A DNA stretch of 43,038 nt. Source: Synergistaceae bacterium (lineage in GTDB: Bacteria; Synergistota; Synergistia; Synergistales; Aminobacteriaceae). This document shows positions 8,292-24,293 of this stretch, in pieces. The stretch spans positions 1 to 43,038 of the forward strand of contig JAFSJJ010000028.1 in the NCBI GenBank assembly GCA_017439345.1, given 5' to 3'. The notes beneath the pieces are model-generated. The model ran no database searches and was not told where the DNA came from. It saw only the letters and a list, made by a program, of their open reading frames with translations. The translations under genes and the position numbers were made by a program. The number at the start of each line of letters is the position of its first letter. Positions within the stretch are counted from its first letter, which is position 1.

Positions 8292-9521
8292 TTGAGCAGT
8301 AACGGTAAAGTTAAGAACATCGGCATCATCACATCAGGAGGAGACTGCGGGGGACTCAATGCAGTAATCAGGGGTGCAGCACGTACAGCACTCATGAGGG
8401 GTATGAGGACCTTTACGATTCCTAACGGTTATGCAGGACTCTATAATCTCGTGAACTTCGATCATCTTGTTGAACTCGATGAAGAACGCACAGATCATAT
8501 TACTTCACAGTTTGCAGGAAGCGATGCAGGACACAGCAGAGTCAAAATTTCCAAGATCAACGACCCTGACAAATACGACAGAATCATGATGGGACTCCGC
8601 AAGCACAATATTGACGGTCTCGTTATCTCCGGCGGCGATGACACAGGCAGCGTTGTTGTTGACCTCTCAGAACACGGAATCCCCTGCGTTCATGCTCCCA
8701 AAACAATGGACTTGGATTTAATGACTTACTCAGTCGGCGGAGACTCAGCGATTAACAAAATTGCAAACATCGTTGACGACCTCAAGACGACCGGAACGAC
8801 TCATAATCGAATCATGGTCATTGAAGTATTCGGACGTTACGCAGGACATACGGCCTTCAGGGGAGGAATTGCAGCAGATGCAGATTGTATATTGATTCCT
8901 GAAGTTCCCGTTGACTTCAACGCAGTATACGCACACTTGAAGCATTATTACATTCGCAGGATTCTGAATTCAGACGTTCACGCAGGCACTTATACAATCG
9001 TAGTAGCTGAAGGTGTCAAAGGCGAAGACGGAAATCTCTTCTCAGACGGCGGCGGAGTTAATACTGACTCATTCGGACATCCCAAACTCGCAGGAGCAGG
9101 GAGATTCGTAAAAGAGACTCTTGAGAACATGATGAAGGAAGACCCTGAAATAAAGCAGTTCATGAAGACTTCAGAAATGTACGTACCCGGAGTATTCGAG
9201 ATTCCTGAGATCCGCGAAGTTATTCCGAGCCACATAGTGAGAAGCGGTTCAACTTCAGCATATGATGTAAACTTCGGCAAGCAGATAGGAGCAGCAGCAG
9301 TAATTTTACTTGAGCAGGGAGTCAGCGGTGTTACAGTCGTTAAGATGTATGACGGCAAGATTCGCTACATGCCTACGAGTGAAGCAATAGTTCAAAGATT
9401 TGTCGGACTTGAGAGCGTTGCATTCTATGAGCAGATGGACGTTTGCTTCGGAAGATTCAGACAGAATTACGAGCCTAAACTTGAAGAAGTTCACGGAGCA
9501 GTCGAGAGGCTGTACAGTTAA
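8292..9521 (+). CDS. 6-phosphofructokinase, probably diphosphate-dependent
   Basis: 409-residue PfkA-superfamily enzyme that phosphorylates fructose-6-phosphate in glycolysis. The N-terminal phosphoryl-donor loop is GGDCGGLN (residues 16-23). The discriminating positions read GGDD (114-117), and PKT replaces PGT (136-138). In characterised members, Asp and Lys at these two sites favour pyrophosphate over ATP as donor, so a reversible PPi-PFK is likely. The catalytic segment is PKTMDLD rather than the usual TIDND/TMDND, a substitution worth checking. Translation starts at TTG 8292, 11 bases after AAAGGAGA, and no ATG is close. It is divergent from the glycerol operon and ends at a strong hairpin terminator. 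Confidence 0.87.
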   Translation: MSSNGKVKNIGIITSGGDCGGLNAVIRGAARTALMRGMRTFTIPNGYAGLYNLVNFDHLVELDEERTDHITSQFAGSDAGHSRVKISKINDPDKYDRIMMGLRKHNIDGLVISGGDDTGSVVVDLSEHGIPCVHAPKTMDLDLMTYSVGGDSAINKIANIVDDLKTTGTTHNRIMVIEVFGRYAGHTAFRGGIAADADCILIPEVPVDFNAVYAHLKHYYIRRILNSDVHAGTYTIVVAEGVKGEDGNLFSDGGGVNTDSFGHPKLAGAGRFVKETLENMMKEDPEIKQFMKTSEMYVPGVFEIPEIREVIPSHIVRSGSTSAYDVNFGKQIGAAAVILLEQGVSGVTVVKMYDGKIRYMPTSEAIVQRFVGLESVAFYEQMDVCFGRFRQNYEPKLEEVHGAVERLYS

Positions 9522-9536
9522 AAATTAAAAACTTTT

Positions 9537-9578
9537 CTCCGGCCAAGTGTAATTATCTTTGACCGGGGAATTTTATTT
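9537..9578 (+). terminator. Intrinsic terminator after phosphofructokinase
   Basis: CTCCGGCCAA (9537-9546) pairs with TTGACCGGGG (9559-9568) with one mismatch and one G-U pair, followed by TTTTATTT. Confidence 0.7.
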
Positions 9579-9581
9579 GCG

Positions 9582-9610
9582 TTGACAAGAAGATTTATCA
9601 GGCATAAAAT
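9582..9610 (+). promoter_or_regulatory. tRNA promoter
   Basis: A consensus TTGACA (9582-9587), a 17-base spacer and TAAAAT (9605-9610) sit about 76 bases before the tRNA-Ala gene. It is the best sigma-70 match in the window. Confidence 0.8.
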
Positions 9611-9686
9611 ATCTTGCGTTTTCGTAGCGTGTTAGCGTGTCATTCATATTGAGAGGCTGCCCGCACGTAATATCTTAAGCAGTATT

Positions 9687-9762
9687 GGGGCTGTAGCGCA
9701 GTTGGGAGCGCGCGACATTCGCATTGTCGAGGCCGGGAGTTCGACTCTCCTCAGCTCCACCA
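9687..9762 (+). tRNA. tRNA-Ala(CGC)
   Basis: A complete 76-base cloverleaf. Acceptor GGGGCTG pairs with CAGCTCC; the D-arm is GCGC/GCGC; anticodon stem CGACA/TGTCG encloses loop TTCGCAT with anticodon CGC (alanine, GCG codons). The T-arm is GGGAG/CTCCT with TTCGACT, and the gene encodes its own CCA end. The integrase gene starts 188 bases downstream and points away from it, the usual arrangement for a prophage that has integrated at the 3' end of a tRNA gene. Confidence 0.93.
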
Positions 9763-9885
9763 TAAAATAAATTTTTTATCTATCACTAATTACATTAAAC
9801 CATTCATAAAGCTATTTTATACAATATTTTTATTTCACGGATTATCACAAAAAGTTATAAAATCTTAATCATGACCGTATAAAAA

Positions 9886-9924
9886 ACCGTGTAAAGATTT
9901 TCCCCTCAAGAATTTTTACACGGT
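9886..9924 (-). terminator. Long hairpin upstream of the integrase, terminator-like on the minus strand
   Basis: ACCGTGTAAA (9886-9895) pairs perfectly with TTTACACGGT (9915-9924), extendable by four more pairs including one G-U. On the minus strand the stem is followed by TTTTTTAT, so it could stop leftward transcription from reaching the tRNA. It may also be a binding site for integrase or a regulator, since it lies 27 bases before the integrase start. The 430 bases between 9521 and 9951 otherwise hold only the tRNA, its promoter and the terminator above. Confidence 0.5.
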
Positions 9925-9950
9925 CAATATAAAGAAAATAGGTGAACACT

Positions 9951-11090
9951 ATGATAACAGAAATTCAAGCAAGAAAAGCACTCCCCAAAGAGAAGCCTTA
10001 CATGCTCCGCGATGATCGGGGGCTGTATTTACGCGTTGACCCTGCCGGTAGAAAATATTGGATATTACGCTACTGGGAAAATAAAAAGGAACATCAGCTA
10101 TCACTGGGGGCATACCCTGAAATTTCCCTGAAAGACGCAAGAATAAAGCGCGATGAGATTCAGACTGCCAGAGCAAAAGGCGAAAACCCCACACTGAAAT
10201 CTGTACGTAAACTGCAAATTTTCTCGGAGGTCGCTAACGAATGGCTTAATGTCCGAATGAAAGATAAATCACAAGGCTATATTAAGACCGTAATTTACAG
10301 GCTCAATAAATACATACTCCCTGCAATCGGTAATCTTGCCTTAAAAGATATTACTTCAGGGCATATTCTGTATATATGCAGGAATATTGAAGATTTAGGG
10401 CATGACGAAACAGCTAGACGGGTAAAAGTCATAATCGGTCAGGTATTCAGATTTTCAATCGCAGCAGGTTATACTGACTCAGACCCTACAGGCGCGCTGC
10501 TCGGAGCATTAAAGCCTCGTCAAAATATTCACTTCCCGACTTTCACGAATCCTTCAGAAATTGCCTTCCTGATGAAAGCCGTCAAAGCATACCCATATAC
10601 GATTTTACGGTCTGCAATGTTATTCTCGATTTATACAGCCGCGAGACCCGGCGAAATACGCAAAGCTGAATGGTCGGAAATTAAGGGCGATACTTGGGAA
10701 ATCCCCCCGGAAAAAATGAAAATGAGGCGCAAGCACGTTATACCCCTATCTTCTCAGGTAAAAGCAATTCTCGCAGAATTAAGGCCATTAACAGGCAAAA
10801 GCAAATGGATATTCCCCTCGCCTAGAGATAATACTCATTGTCTATCAGATAACGGGGTCAGAATAGCACTCCGATCAATCGGCTTTACAAAGGAGCAAAT
10901 AGTGCCTCATGGATTCAGAGCAATGTTCTCGACTATAGCCAACGAACACGGATTTAACAGAGACGTAATCGAGCGGCAATTATCACACGTAGAAATTAAC
11001 TCAGTCAGGGGAGCATACAATCACGCGGAATATATGCCCGAAAGAATTAAATTAATGCAATGGTGGGCAGATTATCTTGACAATCTTTAA
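9951..11090 (+). CDS. Prophage tyrosine integrase (P4/DUF4102 type)
   Basis: 379-residue site-specific recombinase. It has an N-terminal DUF4102-like domain (LRDDRGLYLRVDP, GAYPEISLKDAR), a SAM-like core-binding domain and a C-terminal catalytic domain. Catalytic residues are visible as the first Arg in AARPGEIR, His/Arg in HGFRAMFST, His in RQLSHVE and the nucleophilic Tyr in YNHAEY. ATG at 9951 is chosen because AGGTG lies just upstream; a GTG nine bases earlier is less likely. It is adjacent to tRNA-Ala, which is the expected target of this integrase type. It probably drives integration and, with the HTH gene at 14552, excision. Confidence 0.93.
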   Translation: MITEIQARKALPKEKPYMLRDDRGLYLRVDPAGRKYWILRYWENKKEHQLSLGAYPEISLKDARIKRDEIQTARAKGENPTLKSVRKLQIFSEVANEWLNVRMKDKSQGYIKTVIYRLNKYILPAIGNLALKDITSGHILYICRNIEDLGHDETARRVKVIIGQVFRFSIAAGYTDSDPTGALLGALKPRQNIHFPTFTNPSEIAFLMKAVKAYPYTILRSAMLFSIYTAARPGEIRKAEWSEIKGDTWEIPPEKMKMRRKHVIPLSSQVKAILAELRPLTGKSKWIFPSPRDNTHCLSDNGVRIALRSIGFTKEQIVPHGFRAMFSTIANEHGFNRDVIERQLSHVEINSVRGAYNHAEYMPERIKLMQWWADYLDNL

Positions 11091-15337: not shown

Positions 15338-15799
15338 TCACTCTGAATCGCCCTGATTTGATGAGCTGTTCTCCTGATTTTCACTCTCTGAATTCGTATC
15401 ATGATCCAGAGTCTTTTTTGCAAACGCTAAGAATTTTCCCCGCAGAAATTTCGGAATAGGAACACCTAGAACGTCAGAATTCTCGATTATGGAAATGCCC
15501 TCGTTGCCGATGTAGAACAGACAAACAGCCGTCCTCATAGCGTCCGAGTTGCCTAGAATATGCTGGTCTATTATATGCGCAATTCCTACAAGCAGAAACA
15601 TTACAACTTTGCGCTTAATCCCTTCAAAGCCTGCGTTACTCGAAATTTTGCCTAATTTCCCGGCTGCACAGACTCCTGTAATCTGATCAACAACAGCAAA
15701 CGCGATCAAGACTTTTATAAATCCGTCCAAGCCTCCGAAAAACCAGCCCATAAGACCGACTGACCCCGCTATAATGAATTCGTGAATCTGGTCATTCAT
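15338..15799 (-). CDS. Phage holin (holin_4 / toxin-secretion type)
   Basis: 153-residue membrane protein with hydrophobic segments at about residues 8-25, 30-48 and 68-82 and a charged, Ser/Asn/Glu-rich C-terminus. The DQITGVCAAGKLGKISSNAGFEGIKRK segment (cut here: DQITGV, SNAGFEGIKRK) is the family hallmark. It forms membrane lesions that release the endolysin at the end of the lytic cycle. ATG 15799 has GAGGTGA seven bases upstream; a TTG six bases earlier is less likely. It lies 17 bases after the endolysin gene, so both belong to one lysis cassette. Confidence 0.85.
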   Translation of the reverse strand: MNDQIHEFIIAGSVGLMGWFFGGLDGFIKVLIAFAVVDQITGVCAAGKLGKISSNAGFEGIKRKVVMFLLVGIAHIIDQHILGNSDAMRTAVCLFYIGNEGISIIENSDVLGVPIPKFLRGKFLAFAKKTLDHDTNSESENQENSSSNQGDSE

Positions 15800-15815
15800 G
15801 TACAAATCACCTCAC

Positions 15816-16199
15816 TCATGGACGCACCTCAAAGAAAATATTTCGAGTCTTCCCGCAATCGATGTGAACAAAATCTTTCTTGATGTAATAAATTATGTAT
15901 TGAAGCTCCGGAAGTTTCCCGCGCGCTTTTAAATCTGCAATGACAGAAAACAGCCTGCCTCCTCCGATTGAACTCGACAAATCAGCCGCAAGCCCCTTAG
16001 TGTGATAACTGCCCTTAGTGCCTCCGACTGCAAGATTATATTTCTCGCACCTGCAGCCCGAATTAACGTGAACAGGAACTCCGACAGCCTTGCGAATAAT
16101 CTGCGCAATGTTCATAACTCTTTGATCAATAATATTAGTTCCGCACCCGCAATGACATGTAAATTCACTCACTTTGAAATTTTGTGTATCCTGAGCCAT
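15816..16199 (-). CDS. Endolysin, M15-family peptidase
   Basis: 127-residue zinc peptidase that cleaves peptidoglycan stem peptides. Zinc ligands are visible as H66 and D73 in GSYHTKGLAADL and H112 in VHID, and the family start FTCHCGCG and HVNSGCRC are present. There is no signal peptide, so it depends on the downstream holin for release. ATG 16199 has GGGGAGA ten bases upstream. It follows a terminator after the XkdX gene, so part of its transcription may be read-through or from a local promoter that I do not see. Confidence 0.9.
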   Translation of the reverse strand: MAQDTQNFKVSEFTCHCGCGTNIIDQRVMNIAQIIRKAVGVPVHVNSGCRCEKYNLAVGGTKGSYHTKGLAADLSSSIGGGRLFSVIADLKARGKLPELQYIIYYIKKDFVHIDCGKTRNIFFEVRP

Positions 16200-16220
16200 T
16201 TTTGAATCAATCTCCCCTCA

Positions 16221-16252
16221 TAAAATAAAACAGGGAATCTTGCGACTCCCTG
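16221..16252 (-). terminator. Hairpin terminator between XkdX and endolysin
   Basis: CAGGGA (16231-16236) pairs with TCCCTG (16247-16252); the minus strand then reads TTTTATTTTA. It separates the tail/DGR genes from the lysis genes. Confidence 0.65.
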
Positions 16253-16284
16253 CGAAAAAAATTTATTTGCTGCTGATGTGTTTA

Positions 16285-16419
16285 TTAATAATTCTTGCCG
16301 GTTATCTGCCTGAATTCGTCCGCCGTAATCCAAGCCTTAGCTACTGCGTTGCGCAATTTCGTCTCGCTCCAAACTCCGAGATTGTAAAAATTTTTTACCT
16401 GCTCAAATTTCGCGCTCAT
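16285..16419 (-). CDS. XkdX-family small phage protein
   Basis: 44 residues in a frame too short for most gene finders. It reads MSAKFEQVKNFYNLGVWS, then an AWITADEFRQITGKNY ending. This is the XkdX pattern (a WIT.EE/DE(Y/F)..ITG ending) seen in many phages and PBSX-like elements just before the lysis genes and after the tail fibres. AGGAGTGA lies eight bases before the ATG. The function of XkdX proteins is not established; a late tail or virion-associated role is presumed from position. Confidence 0.8.
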   Translation of the reverse strand: MSAKFEQVKNFYNLGVWSETKLRNAVAKAWITADEFRQITGKNY

Positions 16420-16431
16420 GAAAAATCACTC

Positions 16432-16758
16432 CTATTCTAAATCAATGCCCGTCATCATGGATAAATACGCGATGTCCGACTGAGTCTTTGCCTCTTTAAG
16501 CTCAGAGTCAGGAATATCACGCAAGACAAACCAGTACTCCGAACCTTCCCGCGTAATCTGCACAAGTTCCATGTGTTCGTGCCTGCCCGTTAATCCTGCA
16601 TCGTCCGCGCCTGTTCCTGTGATTGTTACTCCCGACAATTTACCTGCAAACATTTCAGGTCTTATCTCACTGCCCGAAATGAAATTATTTCCATTTAATC
16701 CGAGTCCGCTGATTTGTGTTCCATCAGCCAGCGTAATCGTGAATGTCCCTTTCGCCAT
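16432..16758 (-). CDS. Small beta-rich tail-associated protein
   Basis: 108 residues opening with TFTITLADGTQISGLGLNG, a beta-strand-rich stretch resembling small proteins that accompany phage tail fibres near XkdX. The C-terminal third is more charged. Its ATG lies inside the reverse transcriptase gene: the two frames overlap by 64 bases, unusually long for this compact genome. The XkdX start lies 13 bases past the stop. No catalytic residues are visible. It may be a fibre-associated protein placed at the end of the tail module, with the DGR inserted upstream. Confidence 0.7.
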   Translation of the reverse strand: MAKGTFTITLADGTQISGLGLNGNNFISGSEIRPEMFAGKLSGVTITGTGADDAGLTGRHEHMELVQITREGSEYWFVLRDIPDSELKEAKTQSDIAYLSMMTGIDLE

Positions 16759-18002
16759 TCAGGTATCCTCCCAAATAAATTTTTATATAATTCGGTCATG
16801 TTGTAAATCTGCTGTCTCGACATGCGCTTAAAATTTCCGCCGATCCAGCTCTTAAAAATATTCTCTATCTCGCCGTATGTTATTTTGCCTGCGTCAAGAA
16901 GCCGCTTGTATGCCTTCAATTTCCTGCGTTCACGGGTTACGCTCTTGGGATTTATTTTGCAAATTACACGCCCCGTTTCAGTCAAACTGTAACCGTTCTG
17001 CAAATGTCGATAGAAGCCCGAAAGTTTTACAATTCGTGTCTTGCGTTCGTTGATTATCAGCCCGAATTCTTTAGCTATGACTCTCAGACCGTCAAGCAGT
17101 TCCCGCAAAGTTTCTTTGTCTCCGGCTATGGCGTAAAAGTCGTCAGTGTATCTGCCGTAACCTTTTATGCTTTTTACGATTTTCGCAAAATTATCAAGCC
17201 TGTACGGATAAATTAACCCTATGCTCTGTGAGTTCTGGTTGCCGATGTCCACGCCCTTATCTAGGAATTTCTCCCCTGTCAGAGTCACGGGATCAGCATT
17301 CATGTTCAGCATTTGGTCAACTTTACCGGTTCGGAATGCCTGTATTTCTTCGTCACTGAATCTGCTCACATCGACTCTAAAAGTCTTGAACATTTCAGCA
17401 AGCAGCCAGAGTGTATATTTAAGTTCTTCGGGGTTATCAAGTGAACGAGTCAAGAATTGCTCCAAAACTCCGTAGCATTTATCGTGGGGGATATTCGCAT
17501 AATAACCTGAGAAATCACCTAGCAAAATATAACCTTCGTTGTTGCCGTGTTCCATGAAATATTTATGCAGGTGAGCTTCAAATCGTTTTCTGTGAAATGA
17601 TACGCCCTTCCCCTTCTGTGAGGCTCCGTTGTCGTAAATAAGATATTTGCTCAATGACGGAGTCAATATTTCATCGCTGATTATGTGATTTATAGTTTTG
17701 TCGGCCATTGTATTGCTCGTGATATATCGAGGCTTCCCGCGTTCACGAATAAGAAATTTACTTCCAGCTTCAGGCGTGTACGTGCCTTCCCGCAGGTTTT
17801 TCTGAATCATTGCCGTATAAAGCAGGTGATTCATCTCAAAAAGGTGTGTCGAATACTTGAACGAACTGCCCTTCATTGCTTTAGTTCCGGCATCATAAAT
17901 TACATTGGCATCAAGAAAAATATTATCTTCCATAGTGTTTAGTGCGTTAAAAAACCGCTCTGCAGGTGTAGCAGTCGTAACTGACACCGTAGCGGTTCGC
18001 AT
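16695..18002 (-). CDS. DGR-type reverse transcriptase
   Basis: 435 residues. It copies template-repeat RNA into adenine-mutated cDNA that replaces part of the target gene. RT motifs are visible: LLGDFSGYYANIPH with the first catalytic Asp (D163), the DGR hallmark GxxxSQ as GNQNSQ (254-259) where group II intron enzymes carry a different motif, and the YTDD box (285-288) with the paired aspartates. There is no maturase or endonuclease domain, as expected for a DGR enzyme. The first ATG is 18002 with a poor ribosome site; ATG 17933 is also possible. The template repeat ends 78 bases upstream, and the 3' end overlaps the next gene by 64 bases. Confidence 0.93.
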   Translation of the reverse strand: MRTATVSVTTATPAERFFNALNTMEDNIFLDANVIYDAGTKAMKGSSFKYSTHLFEMNHLLYTAMIQKNLREGTYTPEAGSKFLIRERGKPRYITSNTMADKTINHIISDEILTPSLSKYLIYDNGASQKGKGVSFHRKRFEAHLHKYFMEHGNNEGYILLGDFSGYYANIPHDKCYGVLEQFLTRSLDNPEELKYTLWLLAEMFKTFRVDVSRFSDEEIQAFRTGKVDQMLNMNADPVTLTGEKFLDKGVDIGNQNSQSIGLIYPYRLDNFAKIVKSIKGYGRYTDDFYAIAGDKETLRELLDGLRVIAKEFGLIINERKTRIVKLSGFYRHLQNGYSLTETGRVICKINPKSVTRERRKLKAYKRLLDAGKITYGEIENIFKSWIGGNFKRMSRQQIYNMTELYKNLFGRIPEWRKGHSRLRWLMEHKSADSD

Positions 18003-18079
18003 TTATCAGGTTTGACCCTGAAAGGACAGCCCTTCCTTTCCCATTTACACGCGCGGGAACTTGCCCAATTTTGCGTGTC

Positions 18080-18170
18080 TGTGAAATCGGGGCGAACGCC
18101 AATCGCAGAATTAGAAGCATTATTGTAGTTCGCATTACCATTATTGTTGACATTGGCGAAACACGCACCT
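18080..18170 (-). repeat. DGR template repeat (TR)
   Basis: A 91-base invariant donor copy between the Avd-like and reverse transcriptase genes. It is 784 bases from the variable repeat and aligns to it without gaps. By hand count only four of 91 positions differ, at 18087, 18123, 18141 and 18145, and all four are adenines on the minus strand of TR. Read in the frame of the target it contains nine AAT/AAC codons. These can mutate to many residues without making stop codons, as is typical for TRs. The 24 minus-strand adenines are the substrate positions. Confidence 0.95.
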
Positions 18171-18194
18171 CCAAGAACTGCCCTTAATTTTGCA

Positions 18195-18656
18195 TTACTT
18201 CTTTATGTTCTTAAGGAAACGGTTATCAGACTGTCTAAGAGATTTTATCATATCAAAGACTTCTTGTGCTTCAAGTACTATATTCATGAATTTATTCTTA
18301 TCAGCGGGCAATGTCTCGGCTATGTACTGCAATTCGTCCTGTAACTTATTGCAAGATACGAGGGCGCGATCCATTTCAAGCCTGCGTTCCTCAAATTCAT
18401 TCATGTATGTCGGCCAGATTGTATTTGCTGCTCTTAGATGTTCCGTTATCCCCTGACAAAAATCTGCTACTCTGTCCCGTTCACGCATAATAAACCATGA
18501 GGAAAAATTATCTTCCACCTCACGAATTATTTTGCCCCTCTCTTCGCTCTCGTCTGCATCCTTGATGTAAGCTGTCATTTTCTTAATGTGCGCATCAAGT
18601 TTTTTCTGACTGTAGCCAAATGTCGCCATAAGTTCAGCCATAATTTTTCTGCGCAA
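18195..18656 (-). CDS. Avd-like DGR accessory protein
   Basis: 153 residues, predicted almost fully helical, ending in a basic stretch SLRQSDNRFLKNIKK. It lies between the target gene and the template repeat, exactly where avd sits in BPP-1. Avd is a pentameric four-helix-bundle protein that binds the reverse transcriptase and TR RNA. It is longer than usual Avd proteins (about 125 residues), and I recognise it mainly by position, helical character and charge. The listed start is TTG 18656. The frame stays open upstream to a CTG at 18722-18720 nine bases after a strong GGGGAGG, which would give 175 residues, so the true start is uncertain. Confidence 0.65.
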   Translation of the reverse strand: MRRKIMAELMATFGYSQKKLDAHIKKMTAYIKDADESEERGKIIREVEDNFSSWFIMRERDRVADFCQGITEHLRAANTIWPTYMNEFEERRLEMDRALVSCNKLQDELQYIAETLPADKNKFMNIVLEAQEVFDMIKSLRQSDNRFLKNIKK

Positions 18657-18760
18657 GGCATAAGCACGATGCAGGGCTTCAAGTTTTGATTCAGAGCGTT
18701 TACTTTTCGGTATGTTCGACAGAGTAAATAACCTCCCCTAAATTTGCGATTCAAAATCGA

Positions 18761-18776
18761 CTGCCGCAAGCGGCAG
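18761..18776. other. Perfect short hairpin between target and Avd-like gene
   Basis: CTGCCGC (18761-18767) pairs with GCGGCAG (18770-18776). It lacks a T-run and lies 45 bases from the larger hairpin at 18821. It may shape the RNA upstream of the Avd-like ribosome site. Confidence 0.5.
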
Positions 18777-18820
18777 GTATGCGAAAAACATAAAACCCTT
18801 TTTCTTGCCTGTCAACCGTC

Positions 18821-18847
18821 ATCTAACAGGGACAAGCCCTGTTAGAT
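18821..18847 (-). promoter_or_regulatory. Hairpin downstream of VR, candidate DGR target-recognition element
   Basis: ATCTAACAGGG (18821-18831) and CCCTGTTAGAT (18837-18847) form a perfect 11-base-pair stem with a five-base loop. It starts seven bases after the stop of the target gene and 16 bases beyond the end of VR. In BPP-1, a hairpin just downstream of VR is required for efficient retrohoming. The minus strand has no T-run after the stem, so it is a poor terminator and a good candidate for that role. Confidence 0.7.
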
Positions 18848-18854
18848 TTACTGA

Positions 18855-19820
18855 TTAGTAGATTGTGAAAGCGGGGCGAACGCCAATCGCAGAATTAGAA
18901 GCATTACTGTAGTTCGCATTACCAATATAGTTGACATTGGCGAAACACGCACCTGATACTACGTCCCGCAGCCAATACGGTACTCGGCAGCAAATAATGT
19001 CCGGTCTCAATCTGAATAACGCAAGCTGACTCTTCGCTACCGTGTATAAATTCGGAATTGTGCTACCATTACATGCCGTTCCGAGCACTTTACCTCCATA
19101 GACCATTTGCTCCGTCATTAATTCTACTGTGCTGTCATACCACGCTCCTGCACTCGGATAGCCGCTTGTAACTGCATTCTGTAAATATTCCCTGTGCTTC
19201 AAGATATGATCTGAGCCGAAAGCATTATTGATTATTGTCTTCGCATTGTTCAAGCCCGATTTGTACATGACGCTTCCGACATAGCCGCCTGTCGTTATAT
19301 CTGTCGCATTCATAACCTGAAGATAGAACGTTGTATCAGGAACTACGACTACATGATGTGTTACGCACTCCGTATCACCGGAACGATAGAAATAATCAAA
19401 ATCTGCGATCCTGAAAATATACGTATTGCTGTTTATCGTTATCTCCCAGTAATCGCCAACCCATAAATCATCGAACGTACCGGCTCGAATTGCTGCACTC
19501 TGTTCGGCTGTAAGTGCTGTGCCTAACTTCTTGCCCCTGTACAGCGAATTATGAAGTCCTGCCCCGCTGGCCTCACGCAACGGCTTTGTGAAATCTAATA
19601 TTTCATTCAGAGCTGCAACGAGATTCGCTTTATTCGTTGTGTCAAGATTACCAAGCGTCCCGATATTGCCTGCAAGTTCGTTGATTGCCGAGACAAGATT
19701 TAATTTATTCGTTGTGTCAAGATTCGCAAGGCTGCCCTGTATGTTTTCTACGTTATTGTTGTGTCTGAGAAGTTCTGTTAATATCGACTGCCCTGTCGAA
19801 TCCATTAATAATTTACCCAT
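18855..19820 (-). CDS. DGR target: tail fibre/adhesin with C-terminal variable lectin-like domain
   Basis: 321 residues. The N-terminal part has two copies of a fibre repeat (NLDTTNK.NLV.A.NE) near residues 33 and 58, and the C-terminal 230 residues look like a C-type-lectin/formylglycine-enzyme-type domain ending GVRPAFTIY. The last 32 residues are encoded by the variable repeat. Compared with the template, residues 298 (N to Y), 299 (N to I), 305 (N to S) and 317 (D to A) are changed. It is presumably displayed at the tail tip for receptor binding. It starts with ATG 19820 after GGAGGAAG, overlapping the previous gene by eight bases. Confidence 0.9.
   Translation of the reverse strand: MGKLLMDSTGQSILTELLRHNNNVENIQGSLANLDTTNKLNLVSAINELAGNIGTLGNLDTTNKANLVAALNEILDFTKPLREASGAGLHNSLYRGKKLGTALTAEQSAAIRAGTFDDLWVGDYWEITINSNTYIFRIADFDYFYRSGDTECVTHHVVVVPDTTFYLQVMNATDITTGGYVGSVMYKSGLNNAKTIINNAFGSDHILKHREYLQNAVTSGYPSAGAWYDSTVELMTEQMVYGGKVLGTACNGSTIPNLYTVAKSQLALFRLRPDIICCRVPYWLRDVVSGACFANVNYIGNANYSNASNSAIGVRPAFTIY
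18864..18954 (-). repeat. DGR variable repeat (VR)
   Basis: The 3' end of the target coding sequence, 91 bases, matching the template repeat at 18080-18170 apart from four substitutions. Changes fall at codon positions 1 or 2 only: AAT to TAT, AAT to ATT, AAT to AGT and GAT to GCT. The 3' end of the pair contains the GC-rich GGCGTTCGCCCCG, which fits the position of the initiation of mutagenic homology. The 317 codon change could be mutational or could be the VR/TR polarity mismatch. Confidence 0.95.
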
Positions 19821-20058
19821 TTTCTACTTCCTCCTCCTCCGCTTCTGAGTCTTCATGCTGGGCTATGTCTCCGTCCTCATCGATGTAAAGACCTGAGGCC
19901 GCAAAGAAATCCACTAATTCCGACGCTGTAACCGCTGCTGTGAGTTCTTGAAAGGCTTCAATTGTCGCGTTGGCAAGTTCTAATATTTTCTCGTTCGTGA
20001 ATGTTTTGCTCCGTTGACTAGCTGCTTGAAGATTGTCCTTTGAGATTAAATTGCTCAA
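19813..20058 (-). CDS. Small fibre-associated protein with acidic tail
   Basis: 81 residues, starting at TTG 20058 with GAGGTGA eight bases upstream. The N-terminal half is helical; the end carries FAASGLYIDEDGDIAQ followed by a run of Glu. A closely similar segment, GIYIDDDGDLAQ, ends the separate fibre protein encoded at 20866-21399, which implies a shared short module. It overlaps the DGR target gene by eight bases and follows a strong terminator, so the target and this gene may form their own expression unit. Role unknown; a chaperone or connector for the fibre is possible. Confidence 0.7.
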   Translation of the reverse strand: MSNLISKDNLQAASQRSKTFTNEKILELANATIEAFQELTAAVTASELVDFFAASGLYIDEDGDIAQHEDSEAEEEEVENG

Positions 20059-20075
20059 TTGCAGTTCACCTCACA

Positions 20076-20104
20076 TAAAAAAAGCGAGGAGCCGCCTCCC
20101 CGCT
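20076..20104 (-). terminator. Strong terminator upstream of the DGR target operon
   Basis: AGCGAGGAG (20083-20091) pairs with CTCCCCGCT (20096-20104), nine pairs with one G-U and a four-base loop. The minus strand continues with seven T residues. It lies between the fibre gene at 20119 and the small gene at 20058. Confidence 0.8.
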
Positions 20105-20118
20105 CGTAAAACTTTAAA

Positions 20119-20790
20119 CTAGTTGCCTGATGGTGTCCCGAAGACTCCGTTCAGCATTTCCGTAACTTCTGCTGCTGTTGCAATCCCTGAGCCTGAATCC
20201 GTCAGATTTCCGTTAGCGTCAAGTCCTGCGAGATTTCCTGCCGTTGCGTTCGCGACTTTGTCCGTCTTGTCTGAAATATTAACGTGAAGTCCGTCAGCCT
20301 GTACAGTGATTGCGTTGTTGGCTATTGCTGAAACGTGGAACTCTATCTCATTGCCTGAAATTGAGAGAACCTTTGCGCTGTCCCCTGTCTTGATTGTGTA
20401 AACGTCAATGAGGGTTTCAAGATTCAGGAACGAGAAATTAAGAGTCTCTGCTCCGGCTGCTGTAGTTGTCTTGACTGCGAGGACTAATACGGGCTTGCCT
20501 TCAAGTGAAGGATTCGTTGCACCGGGATATGTCGTAGGATTAAACGCAAAATTAGGAACAAACGTTGTGCGGGCAGCGTCTAAGACCATTTCATTCGGGA
20601 AATCAACGGTGAATGCTGCTGTTCCTGTTCCGTCTGCACTCGTAAAGAAGCTGACAGTATTTCCGGCTGTTGATACGTACTTGATCGCACTTGCCGCAAC
20701 TAGGGACACTGCATCGAGCTCTGATTTTGTACGTTCGGCCAAAGACTTGAGCGCACCTAACTTGACTAAACTTGATTCGTTATAAGGCAT
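20119..20790 (-). CDS. Tail fibre-like protein
   Basis: 223 residues rich in Ala, Thr, Ser, Asn and Gly, with beta-strand patterning (VSFFTSADGTGTAAFTVDF) and a C-terminal repeat-like DANGNLTDSGSGIATAAEV segment typical of phage fibres and head fibres. No enzyme motif. AGGAGG-like GGAGG lies eight bases before the ATG. It sits between a tail-collar/fibre gene and the terminator before the DGR target. Probably a structural fibre or its baseplate adaptor; receptor specificity cannot be read from the sequence. Confidence 0.7.
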   Translation of the reverse strand: MPYNESSLVKLGALKSLAERTKSELDAVSLVAASAIKYVSTAGNTVSFFTSADGTGTAAFTVDFPNEMVLDAARTTFVPNFAFNPTTYPGATNPSLEGKPVLVLAVKTTTAAGAETLNFSFLNLETLIDVYTIKTGDSAKVLSISGNEIEFHVSAIANNAITVQADGLHVNISDKTDKVANATAGNLAGLDANGNLTDSGSGIATAAEVTEMLNGVFGTPSGN

Positions 20791-20865
20791 GATAAAACCT
20801 CCGTAAAATAAAATATTTATCTTAAAGCCTGAGAATTACTCCCCTGCATTAAGACCTGAAATTAA

Positions 20866-21399
20866 TTAATTGAAAACGTCATCGAGCATTTCCTCAACGT
20901 CATCTTCTGTAGCAATATCCTTTTCTGATTCTGAGTCCGGGTCATCGGGATTGATTATGTGTTCATCGTCCTGAGCTAAATCACCGTCATCATCGATGTA
21001 AATTCCAAGTCTCCCGAAAATTCCCTGTGTACTTGCTGATTTCTCTAAATCCTTGATTTTCTCTTCAAAGAGTTTGTCCCGATTGTTCCAGTAAGTAACT
21101 GCCTTCTTAATATCTACTGCTAACTCGGCAAGTAATACCGCTCTAGCACGGGGGATTATTGCGTATTCGAGACTTGCTGCTGTCTCGCCTGTGTATTCTT
21201 TAACCAGCGTCAAAACTCCACTGCCGGTTACTTTGTCTATTTCGTTAAACTGGCCGTTAATTATCAGAGCATCGCCCTGCTTAATTCCGCCTGTCAGCCA
21301 TTCCGTATTAGTCCCTGTTACTTTTTTAGAACCCTGAATAACTGAGATTAAGCCGGTTCTGTACCATGAATAATTCTCTGTAAAATCCATTTTTCTCAC
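20866..21399 (-). CDS. Tail fibre/spike-associated protein with GIYIDDDGD module
   Basis: About 174-177 residues. The N-terminal 70 residues are beta-rich (GLISVIQGSKKVTGTNTEW), typical of tailspike or fibre N-termini that dock on the baseplate; a charged helix follows, then an acidic tail with GIYIDDDGDLAQ. GTG 21399 and ATG 21390 are both possible starts; AGGAG is three bases from GTG and eleven from ATG, so ATG is favoured. The gene overlaps or abuts the previous stop. The shared acidic end with the 20058 protein suggests a common partner. Confidence 0.65.
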   Translation of the reverse strand: MRKMDFTENYSWYRTGLISVIQGSKKVTGTNTEWLTGGIKQGDALIINGQFNEIDKVTGSGVLTLVKEYTGETAASLEYAIIPRARAVLLAELAVDIKKAVTYWNNRDKLFEEKIKDLEKSASTQGIFGRLGIYIDDDGDLAQDDEHIINPDDPDSESEKDIATEDDVEEMLDDVFN

Positions 21400-22001
21400 G
21401 TCTCCTGATACTCTATGTGTTCAAGCGAATTCATTATGCTTGCTTGAGCGAGCTGGTCTATTTGATACTGCAAGAATTCATTCTTAGCGTTGATTGCCTT
21501 TATTACCGCGTCAAATCTTGCTTCCATCTGGTTATGGGTTACTGCTAGGGGATTGTCCGAAATTATTGCAGTTACGTTCTTTGCCTGATCTACAATTACT
21601 GCCAGATTTAACCTGTAATACATAGGATCAGGTCCGTCACTTGCTGGCATGAAGTCCGCTAAATTTCCTGAATAACAATACCCGTACAAAATTTCCTGTC
21701 CTGTGTCAGGGTCTTCTGCAAAGAGTCCGACTTCACGTATGAAAAAGCCCGTCTGCATTTCTTTATTCGACAGCCTAACTGCAACCTTTGCTGTTCCTGT
21801 GTGTCCGGTCATTTCGATCTCGACAATTTCCATTTCACGGACTGGCGCAATCAGATTTTCGAGAGTGTTTATGTCCGTCTCCTCCGGCAAAAATCCTGAA
21901 CCTGCAACGCCTCTTGTGAATTTGAGAATCTTCCCTGTAATTGCCTTTGCTATGAGATCACGACCGGCATTAGTGATAGTCATTCCGTTAAATTGAGCCA
22001 T
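21396..22001 (-). CDS. Tail-collar fibre protein (DUF3751/gpH N-terminal type)
   Basis: 201 residues. The start AQFNGMTITNAGRDLIAKA and the segments KFTRGVAGSG and GFFIREVGLFAEDPDTG are typical of P2 gpH-like fibre N-termini that attach fibres to the baseplate. The usual long fibre shaft is absent: the protein ends soon after a helical segment. The fibre is therefore probably completed by the separately encoded proteins downstream (20866, 20119 and the DGR target). ATG 22001 has AGGAGGTGAG upstream. It follows gpI, the standard position. Confidence 0.85.
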   Translation of the reverse strand: MAQFNGMTITNAGRDLIAKAITGKILKFTRGVAGSGFLPEETDINTLENLIAPVREMEIVEIEMTGHTGTAKVAVRLSNKEMQTGFFIREVGLFAEDPDTGQEILYGYCYSGNLADFMPASDGPDPMYYRLNLAVIVDQAKNVTAIISDNPLAVTHNQMEARFDAVIKAINAKNEFLQYQIDQLAQASIMNSLEHIEYQET

Positions 22002-22017
22002 TCTCTCACCTCCTGAA

Positions 22018-22860
22018 TTAAGCTGCTAAATTAATATTTATCTCGATACCGCATGAGACTGCACAAGCTGCACAAAAACTTGCTGTAGATTCTGAGTCTT
22101 TCGGTGAAGCTATATTTATCGTGTGTGAAATTCCCTGAACAACTGCACCTGCTGAGACAAGATTTAATTTTTCATCGCGTTCTGCGGGGACAATCAAATT
22201 AATATAGTGCTGAATTCCTATGTTTGCCAAAGCTCCGACAGATAGATTCATTTCATCAGAGCTTGAATGATTGAGGACTAAGCTAATATCATGAACTGCG
22301 CTTTGTTCGACAATAGCTCCGACCTGTAAATTCTGTTCTGTATCGTCTTCAAAATAGACATAGAGCCTTGACATCCACGAACGCTCGGCCTTTGATTCCT
22401 GAATAGCGCGCCTGATTGTCTGAGTGGGTTTAGTCCAGTCGACACGCTCCCAGAAATCACGGGTTAATTTTGCGTCAATTGCGAATGTGTAAGGGTCTGT
22501 GCCCTCCTCGTACCATGCTGTAAATTTTGCCTCGACTCCCAGCATTTCAAGAGCCTTGATGATTGCCCATCGAGTGCCCTTCTTCCTGTGCCACGCTATA
22601 GAGCCTAAGACCATTTCACGCTTTGCATCGATATTCTTTGCGAGTTCGTAAAAATCAACGTGCCACTGCCACGCAAGCAGATCTAATACAGGCTCAGGGA
22701 GAGTCTTAATTCTTGAAATAATAAAAGCCTCCGAGACTGACTCAGAGACTTGTCTTAAATTCGGATCAATCGACTTGAATAAATCCTGTACGTTCTTATC
22801 GCCTGCTATTGACGGCGGGGCTATGTCTTCAAGATTTAAATATTCGAGTTCCTTAGCCAT
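22018..22860 (-). CDS. Tail protein I with C-terminal repeat extension
   Basis: 280 residues, longer than usual gpI (about 180). Residues 1-180 match the phage tail protein I family (DLLAWQWHVDFY, KKGTRWAI, LEMLGVEAKF). The last 100 residues are four imperfect repeats of about 28 residues, each with a (V/C)(G/A)A segment and a final (D/H/Y)(I/T)(S/N)L(V/I)-type beta-strand, ending EININLAA. The extension may anchor fibres. The gene overlaps gpJ by eight bases (ATGGCTAA) with GGAGG upstream. Baseplate component. Confidence 0.85.
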   Translation of the reverse strand: MAKELEYLNLEDIAPPSIAGDKNVQDLFKSIDPNLRQVSESVSEAFIISRIKTLPEPVLDLLAWQWHVDFYELAKNIDAKREMVLGSIAWHRKKGTRWAIIKALEMLGVEAKFTAWYEEGTDPYTFAIDAKLTRDFWERVDWTKPTQTIRRAIQESKAERSWMSRLYVYFEDDTEQNLQVGAIVEQSAVHDISLVLNHSSSDEMNLSVGALANIGIQHYINLIVPAERDEKLNLVSAGAVVQGISHTINIASPKDSESTASFCAACAVSCGIEININLAA

Positions 22861-23992
22861 CTTCGAGACCTCCGAGTGTTAGAGTTATCCCGCTCATGAT
22901 CGCAACCTGAGAGGCCGTTAATACTCTAAATTCAGGCGAGATTATTTCTGTACGTTTTGCTCCGGCTGCTATCATTCTGTGATTTAACTCACTGGGATTT
23001 ATATCGCGTCCGAGTTTTACCCTCTGCCATGTTACCCAGTTATTAACAGCGTTCTCTACAGCCTTCTGAATAAATGCCGCCTGAGTCGCCCGTTTGCGGT
23101 CTATCCAATACGTAACGTTTAATTCATATTCGACAGGTTCAGGACTTAACACGTGCAATAAATCTGTGTCCGGTCTAACGTCTTCGGCATTGCAGACTTC
23201 ATAAACTGCGTCAAGAATTTCCTGTGTCGGCAAATCTCCGCCGGTCATTAAGGGGTAAATATTCACATGGCCGGGACTTGTAACAGGAGGTCCGACAACT
23301 GCAACGTCAATAATATCCTGATGAGCTGACCTTGCGTAAAATTCGTATGCACCTCTCGGCCCGGCAACACTGAAACTTTCAGGGGCAATCTGAATCCTCT
23401 CGCGAAAATTCTCGTCTGATTCAACATCACTGCCCCCGTAAGATTCAGTTATATTCACTACGGACATCTCGAACGGGAAGGGGTCAACGAGCTTGCGTAT
23501 CTGACCTGCGACAAACCCGTTGCCTTGAGTTCCGGTGAGTGTGCATTGCGCTGTAACTTCTATTTGAGTCTCGCCTGCCGGAATTTCAACGCTCTCAGTC
23601 GTAGCAAAAAGAATTACTCCCCCGCCCGGTGAAGCACGGGTATTAACAGGAATAATCACGGCTGAGGGCTGGGCTTCCGACAATGTAAATTTCAGAGTCG
23701 TAAGTGCATGAGACGCTTCAAGCCTCGTAACCTGTAACAAAGCTCCGATGTGATCCAGAAAAGCACCTTCAGCATAGGCAAGTAAATTTTGTTTAGCCGC
23801 ATGGTCAATCAAGCTCCTTTGCTGAACGATTATTAATACTATGCATTCAAGAAATAATCTCACTGGGTCTCCTCTGGCAAGGGTACGCTCTGACATTGAT
23901 TCATAAAGATTTATTATCTCGCTTTGAATTTCGTTTGCGTCCTTCTGAGCAAAAAATATTTCTTCAAGATTAGCGAATAATTCAGATTTCAT
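22853..23992 (-). CDS. Baseplate assembly protein J
   Basis: 379 residues of the P2 gpJ/Mu gp47 family that forms the baseplate wedge. The family sequence is clear in the middle (DPVRLFLECIVLIIVQQ, GAFLDHIGAL, GGSDVESDENFRERI, FYARSAHQDIIDVAVVGP). ATG at 23992 is chosen over the TTG six bases earlier because AGGA lies 9 bases upstream. It overlaps the gpW stop by eleven bases and gpI by eight, consistent with an ordered W-J-I baseplate block. Confidence 0.92.
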   Translation of the reverse strand: MKSELFANLEEIFFAQKDANEIQSEIINLYESMSERTLARGDPVRLFLECIVLIIVQQRSLIDHAAKQNLLAYAEGAFLDHIGALLQVTRLEASHALTTLKFTLSEAQPSAVIIPVNTRASPGGGVILFATTESVEIPAGETQIEVTAQCTLTGTQGNGFVAGQIRKLVDPFPFEMSVVNITESYGGSDVESDENFRERIQIAPESFSVAGPRGAYEFYARSAHQDIIDVAVVGPPVTSPGHVNIYPLMTGGDLPTQEILDAVYEVCNAEDVRPDTDLLHVLSPEPVEYELNVTYWIDRKRATQAAFIQKAVENAVNNWVTWQRVKLGRDINPSELNHRMIAAGAKRTEIISPEFRVLTASQVAIMSGITLTLGGLEDG

Positions 23993-24293
23993 TAACAATA
24001 ATCCTCACTTTAAAATTTAGTCTGCCGTCTTTATTTCCTTCAAAGAATATTCTTTTGACTTTGCAGCGGGGCTCGTATTTCCTGATTGCCTGAGTCAATT
24101 CTGCCTGTAGTGCTGCCATTGCCTTCGGTGTCGGACGGTCAAGCATTTTTATATCAACGCCGAATGCCCTGTCCATAGGCACTGAATATTTCGGAGTCGT
24201 GCAGATCGTACGGACATTTTGAATGATTTCTTTGACTTCATTGTCAGGGGCAAAATCAATTTCTTTAGGGACTGCTAAAATGTCAATTTCCAT
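23982..24293 (-). CDS. Baseplate protein W (gp25-like)
   Basis: 103 residues of the GPW/gp25 lysozyme-like baseplate family: NVRTICTTPKYSVPMDRAFG near residue 27 is the family signature and the C-terminus forms the final beta-strand (FKVRIIVNEI). It links the sheath and baseplate wedge in contractile tails. The start overlaps gpU by eleven bases, and the stop overlaps gpJ. It is in the usual order before J. Confidence 0.9.
   Translation of the reverse strand: MEIDILAVPKEIDFAPDNEVKEIIQNVRTICTTPKYSVPMDRAFGVDIKMLDRPTPKAMAALQAELTQAIRKYEPRCKVKRIFFEGNKDGRLNFKVRIIVNEI

Follow-up and report, generated by a model that had tools for sequence, protein, structure and literature searches.

The window analysed here is a stretch of 43,038 nt from a Synergistaceae bacterium (contig JAFSJJ010000028.1 of assembly GCA_017439345.1). 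On its minus strand lies a cassette that is, with high probability, a complete phage diversity-generating retroelement (DGR) of the Avd-bearing type, which would rewrite the variable repeat (VR) of a tail-fibre gene from cDNA of a template repeat (TR). From the target gene to the reverse transcriptase (RT) the cassette consists of the following features:

18855..19820, minus strand: DGR target, a tail-fibre protein of 321 aa with N-terminal NLDTTNK repeats (tail-fibre PHROGs) and a C-terminal DUF6273-like domain
18864..18954, minus strand: VR, codons about 290-319, with 3 adenine-directed changes and the fixed GCT of the initiation of mutagenic homing (IMH) site
18821..18847, minus strand: target-site hairpin with an 11-bp stem (ATCTAACAGGG/CCCTGTTAGAT) and a CTTGT loop, 16 nt past VR
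18195..18722, minus strand: avd, 175 aa, with a probable CTG start after GGGGAGG
18080..18170, minus strand: TR, rich in AAT/AAC
17953..18080, minus strand: structured spacer RNA from TR to RT (covariance model R1, 118 bits; the window is among R1's own sequences)
16695..17933, minus strand: DGR RT, 412 aa from M24, with GNQNSQ and YTDD motifs; the open reading frame (ORF) opens at 18002

All reading frames and cis-elements of the cassette are intact in the window. A preliminary description had claimed a complete DGR in BPP-1-like order, and target, avd, TR and RT were indeed all recovered where it had placed them, forming one minus-strand unit in the order target-VR-hairpin-avd-TR-spacer-RT. 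Rewriting of the last 32 residues, as proposed there, agrees with the position of VR in the target.

TR and VR are the top repeat pair of the region (91 nt, 4 mismatches, 96%). All 4 mismatches are opposite TR adenines, which make up 24 of the 91 TR bases (Fisher p = 0.004). One of them, GAT in TR and GCT in VR at the 3’ end, recurs in each of the five near relatives that have a TR/VR pair (L035, L041, L042, L045 and L012). It is thus a fixed difference between IMH* (GAT) and IMH (GCT), and counting all four mismatches as mutagenesis was rejected. Diversification hence amounts to 3 mismatches, all at A (counted in the same way, p is about 0.017), which change the present VR relative to TR by N-to-Y, N-to-I and N-to-S. 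With three sites remaining the window's own pair is modest evidence, and the relatives are decisive. Remote VRs elsewhere in the same genome were not found.

In the near relatives the mismatches fall at A in 14/16 (L035), 9/10 (L042), 10/12 (L045) and 9/12 cases (L012), and in 16/19 cases in the Acutalibacter phage Fontainebleau (L082). The same holds for dozens of IMG/VR loci with RT identities down to 26%, where nearly all TR/VR mismatches are at adenines. As a positive control, the same script recovered the BPP-1 repeats with 18 of 22 mismatches at A.

If the system operates, VR should vary between sister phages and TR stay constant, as the preliminary description had pointed out. We compared pairs with near-identical RT from the same clade, the window's own phage being in none of them. 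Six pairs show a TR with 0 differences next to a diverged VR: L094/L099 (19 VR differences), L124/L125 (16), L131/L133 (16), L165/L166 (18), L175/L178 (23) and L190/L192 (18), the latter with identical RT and identical 400 nt upstream of VR. In further sister pairs the VRs are identical; some of these pairs probably represent one phage that was sampled twice. L095/L107 and L139/L143 show 4 and 5 TR differences, respectively, so that TR constancy is not universal.

The target protein matches tail-fibre PHROGs at residues 20-76, where the N-terminal NLDTTNK repeats are present in two copies. A tail-fibre target, as originally suggested, is thus supported. In line with its exclusion from the classic Mtd proteins, searches of Pfam, PHROGs, NCBIfam and PDB gave no match to Mtd; a PDB sequence search with the target profile returned nothing useful. 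The target is of the DUF6273 type, an already known class of DGR targets, and DUF6273 is found at E up to 0.01 in 16 of 24 aligned target relatives. According to published work, DUF6273 serves as a target domain of DGRs, has a C-type-lectin fold and is hypermutated in a beta-hairpin (PMC10743442; PMC11792537). In the model of the target, VR lies on the well predicted strands 292-296, 302-306 and most of 316-320, forming a terminal beta-hairpin.

A relative of the target is encoded in 23 of 43 genomes of the same genus and a relative of avd in 8 of 43, which implies many related fibres without an adjoining DGR. ORF23 of Lactobacillus phage JCL1032 (L084) is 54% identical to the C-terminal part of the target; the stretch examined there holds neither an adenine-biased repeat pair nor an annotated RT.

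Several points weigh against an active DGR with a lectin-like target. The match of residues 280-320 to DUF6273 (E 5e-4) is under the Pfam cut-off. Foldseek gave the IgA peptidase 9qa6 as best match of the target, with weak lectin-like matches and no confident one to a solved C-type lectin; the C-type-lectin fold therefore rests on the DUF6273 literature, and the lectin-like character claimed before is supported in part, by the DUF6273 match below the cut-off and the modelled terminal beta-hairpin. No close sisters of the window phage were found by RT in IMG/VR or by the exact TR/VR pattern. With 3 diversified positions, the VR of the window ranks lowest in the set and gives no evident sign of recent activity. 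Finally, several sister prophages carry broken cassettes, indicating that decay is common in the lineage.

The likeliest rival is an intact-looking but silent DGR whose VR is no longer diversified in the lysogen and which is heading to decay. Relatives show 7-20 diversified adenines, compared to 3 in the window, and same-genus prophages have avd and/or TR deletions (L039, L040, L044, L046, L047) and broken RTs. However, the cassette of the window is intact throughout, and its few changes may reflect a recent or single homing event. RT and Avd are under purifying selection relative to kin; against L035, the nearest relative with a full cassette, the RT shows a nonsynonymous divergence (dN) of 0.14 and a synonymous divergence (dS) of 2.7. 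We consider a silent element unlikely.

The broken cassettes take different forms. At L039 (7600-7870), L040 (820-1130) and L044 (8780-9070) the target runs straight into the TR 3’ flank and spacer. These loci lack avd as well as one copy of the repeat, which looks like the outcome of recombination between VR and TR; alternatively, the repeats may have collapsed in the assembly. In RT-strand coordinates, the avd start is fused to mid-RT in L046 (8120-9281), avd and TR are lost between hairpin and RT in L047 (9230-9380), and RT is fused after a PAAR-like ORF in L048 (9655-10893).

Directly past the target stop codon, the window forms a hairpin with a DNA folding energy of -10.7 kcal/mol (z -6.1). 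Of 69 distinct loci, 50 have a hairpin of at least 7 bp after VR. As controls, the same loci have 4 after TR, 3 before VR and 2 further downstream, with 1.4 expected from mononucleotide shuffles. The loop of the clade has 5 nt and follows YTTRT, with CTTGT being commonest and TTTAT next. Loop positions 1 and 4 covary, being C-G (30) or T-A (8) in 38 of 41 pentaloops; these counts are not all independent events since some loci are close relatives. The loop sequence is conserved while the stems change completely. In distant RT lineages, among them BPP-1, VP58.5, phiARM81mr and Taranis, the loop is instead G..A and 4 nt long.

The published BPP-1-type loop is a GRNA tetraloop on a 7-10 bp GC-rich stem and reportedly strict in size and sequence (PMC3240598), and archaeal elements have GRA triloops (PMC4372165). 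With its 11-bp stem, 5-nt CTTGT loop and no GRNA tetraloop, the window hairpin falls outside the BPP-1-type definition. A description of the pentaloop was not found in the literature searched, subscription journals being mostly outside its scope. A second short inverted repeat (CTGCCGCTTGCGGCAG) is located at 18762-18777 on the minus strand, between the VR hairpin and avd.

Given its location just past the target stop codon, the hairpin might be a transcription terminator only, with no role as a homing signal. T-rich sequence follows 5 of 37 pentaloop hairpins, but the other 32, including that of the window, have none. A loop that is conserved on wholly changing stems, with covariation of positions 1 and 4, also disfavours the terminator reading, which we regard as quite improbable.

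The RT carries the motifs IGNQNSQ and YTDD, the former containing the GxxxSQ signature noted before. Its solved-structure matches comprise a group II maturase and 8ub7, a 328-residue RT equal in length to BPP-1 brt, which we take to be the BPP-1 RT. A tree was built by a quick method with Shimodaira-Hasegawa-like approximate likelihood ratio test (SH-aLRT) support and no bootstrap, comparing 72 DGR RTs and L063 to 7 group II-like RTs. With SH-aLRT 100 it sets a 73-row side, holding 72/72 DGR RTs and the very long-branch non-DGR L063, apart from the 7 group II-like RTs. Within it the window RT falls in DGR-only sets with SH-aLRT 99, 97 and 100, the one at 99 having 7 rows and placing it beside L035 and L039. 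The placement within the DGR clade, which the preliminary description had made a check of its reading, is thus borne out. An ordinary duplication next to a non-DGR RT (group II intron-like, retron or defence RT), to which the merely generic RT label of Pfam, NCBIfam and PADLOC would be open, is ruled out by this tree, the adenine-only mismatches across the RT clade and the sister pairs with constant TR and variable VR.

The RT probably starts at M24 (17933) and not at the ORF opening at 18002. In the long ORF the first 23 codons (18002-17934) overlap the structured spacer RNA or come just after it, and L039, among other relatives, begins at the M24 equivalent.

The Avd-like helical gene was likewise found as proposed, except that the ORF as first called from an ATG/GTG/TTG start is probably too short. 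Its relatives align from CTG 18722 on, where L035 has a TTG, and GGAGG precedes both; avd thus probably begins at this CTG. The window protein alone gave no family match. The PHROG 'Avd protein of DGR' is matched by 11 of 20 aligned homologues, the nearest members being missed. The window Avd is modelled as a helical bundle (predicted local distance difference test score 86.7); Foldseek ranks S23-family proteins highest, all with weak E-values (2rld: probability 1.00, E 0.034), with BPP-1 Avd 4dwl further down (probability 0.94, E 0.93). Comparison of the Avd profile to BPP-1-type Avd gave no signal (hhalign probability 0.4%), leaving a link by fold only, and a PDB sequence search with the profile yielded nothing useful. 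By its aligned relatives and modelled fold, the protein qualifies as the accessory Avd of the S23 four-helix fold.

Between TR and RT, 14 spacer sequences share one structure in which 93.5% of cells are paired and 16 of 28 pairs are changed on both sides. None of 500 shuffles reached this covariation, and sliding columns by 1-3 cut the pairing to 31-51%. Part of the structure was derived from the window sequence itself; the outermost 5’ helix, misaligned by MAFFT, was left out. The window spacer alone folds modestly better than shuffles (z -1.6), hence the evidence for the RNA is its covariation. Model R1 finds the spacer in further clade loci, between TR and RT wherever coordinates were compared, and detects it in 11 of the 43 same-genus genomes. 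No Rfam match was obtained, and no description of this RNA was found in the literature searched. The BPP-1 spacer reportedly folds and recruits RT-Avd (PMC12875486), and the position of the window spacer suggests a similar function.

In at least one sister genome, G042, DGR parts are scattered. A prophage fibre gene with VR on contig C23 (L227, 1421-1508) has no adjoining avd, TR or RT. Contig C83 (L211, 7636-8421) carries avd in intact form next to ispE, together with a TR and the spacer RNA. On contig C113 (L043, about 8904-10283) the RT is intact, accompanied by a partial TR and a truncated spacer, and its neighbours are chromosomal genes. Between the C23 VR and the C83 TR, 12 of 88 sites are different, every one an adenine, and no other TR compared fits this VR as well. 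The ispE-side avd is common to G042 and G008 (L212), with dN 0.021 and dS 0.163. The chromosomal avd-TR and the RT elsewhere may form a trans-acting DGR that diversifies this fibre, which has no local RT, avd or TR; decay and a binning error of the metagenome-assembled genome are the rival readings.

The window is one entire 43-kb contig of a 2.54 Mb genome in 46 contigs. The DGR sits at the tail-fibre end of a prophage with P2-like baseplate near a tRNA-Ala, in the genome of a Synergistaceae-type gut bacterium. Baseplate_J, Tail_P2_I and the tail-collar fibre are upstream of the target:

19813..24293, minus strand: flanking tail genes, namely Baseplate_J (22853-23998), Tail_P2_I (22018-22860), tail-collar fibre (21396-22001) and small fibre-region ORFs
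15338..16758, minus strand: downstream genes, namely a small ORF overlapping the RT end, XkdX, Peptidase_M15 endolysin and holin
9687..11090, plus strand: tRNA-Ala (9687-9762) and tyrosine integrase (9942-11090), a probable host/prophage border

Portal, terminase gpA, tape measure and PAAR proteins are found farther off in the window. No plasmid match was obtained.

Among known systems, BPP-1 (mtd-avd-TR-brt) shares gene order, the one-strand unit, adenine-directed mismatches, IMH/IMH*, a hairpin after VR and a phage receptor-binding target. In contrast, its target is Mtd and its loop GAAA, and the 175-aa Avd of the window has no profile similarity and a weak fold match only. Acutalibacter phage Fontainebleau (ON453893) has the closest RT among phage records (56%), a related target (46%), a pentaloop hairpin (CTTGC) and the same spacer RNA (120 bits, among R1's own sequences); it differs in its host, and the record names an RT but annotates no avd, TR or VR. 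Faecalibacterium phages and nd4/nd12 share the target domain class, and their VR, described at the domain C-terminus or as a surface beta-hairpin, respectively, is placed alike (PMC11792537; PMC10743442). Their RTs are about 25-31% identical to that of the window and their fibre N-termini are different. FP_Taranis has a GGAA tetraloop and nd4/nd12 have two targets each, unlike the window. Roseburia phage Shimadzu (LR596903) has the same P2-like baseplate J/I neighbourhood, tail fibre-Avd-TR-RT order, 17/18 mismatches at A and a pentaloop (CTCGT), whereas its RT is 32% identical and its spacer RNA is undetected by model R1.

By analogy to BPP-1, TR and the downstream structured spacer would be transcribed. 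RT and Avd would bind the spacer and copy TR to cDNA, misreading template adenines as shown for BPP-1, and the mutated cDNA would replace VR at the 3’ end of the tail-fibre gene. The one-way direction may be set by the IMH/IMH* difference together with the hairpin after VR. Asparagine-rich positions of the C-terminal beta-hairpin in a DUF6273-type receptor-binding domain would thereby be rewritten, and the altered tip may change what the phage adheres to, and with it host binding.

The DGR principle and DUF6273 as target class are known already; the pentaloop hairpin and the spacer RNA look lineage-specific. More tentatively, and with somewhat more doubt than confidence, we propose a large phage DGR clade with a target-site code of its own (YTTRT loop, covariation of positions 1 and 4, free stem) and a conserved spacer RNA recruiting RT/Avd, with the parts split and trans-acting in G042. 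Given the reported strictness of the BPP-1 loop, a different conserved loop raises the question of its reader, be it RT, Avd or a host factor. Our analysis adds a complete, apparently intact DGR with a well-defined clade in a little-studied bacterial lineage, and the pentaloop hairpin and the covarying spacer RNA are concrete cis-elements for testing.

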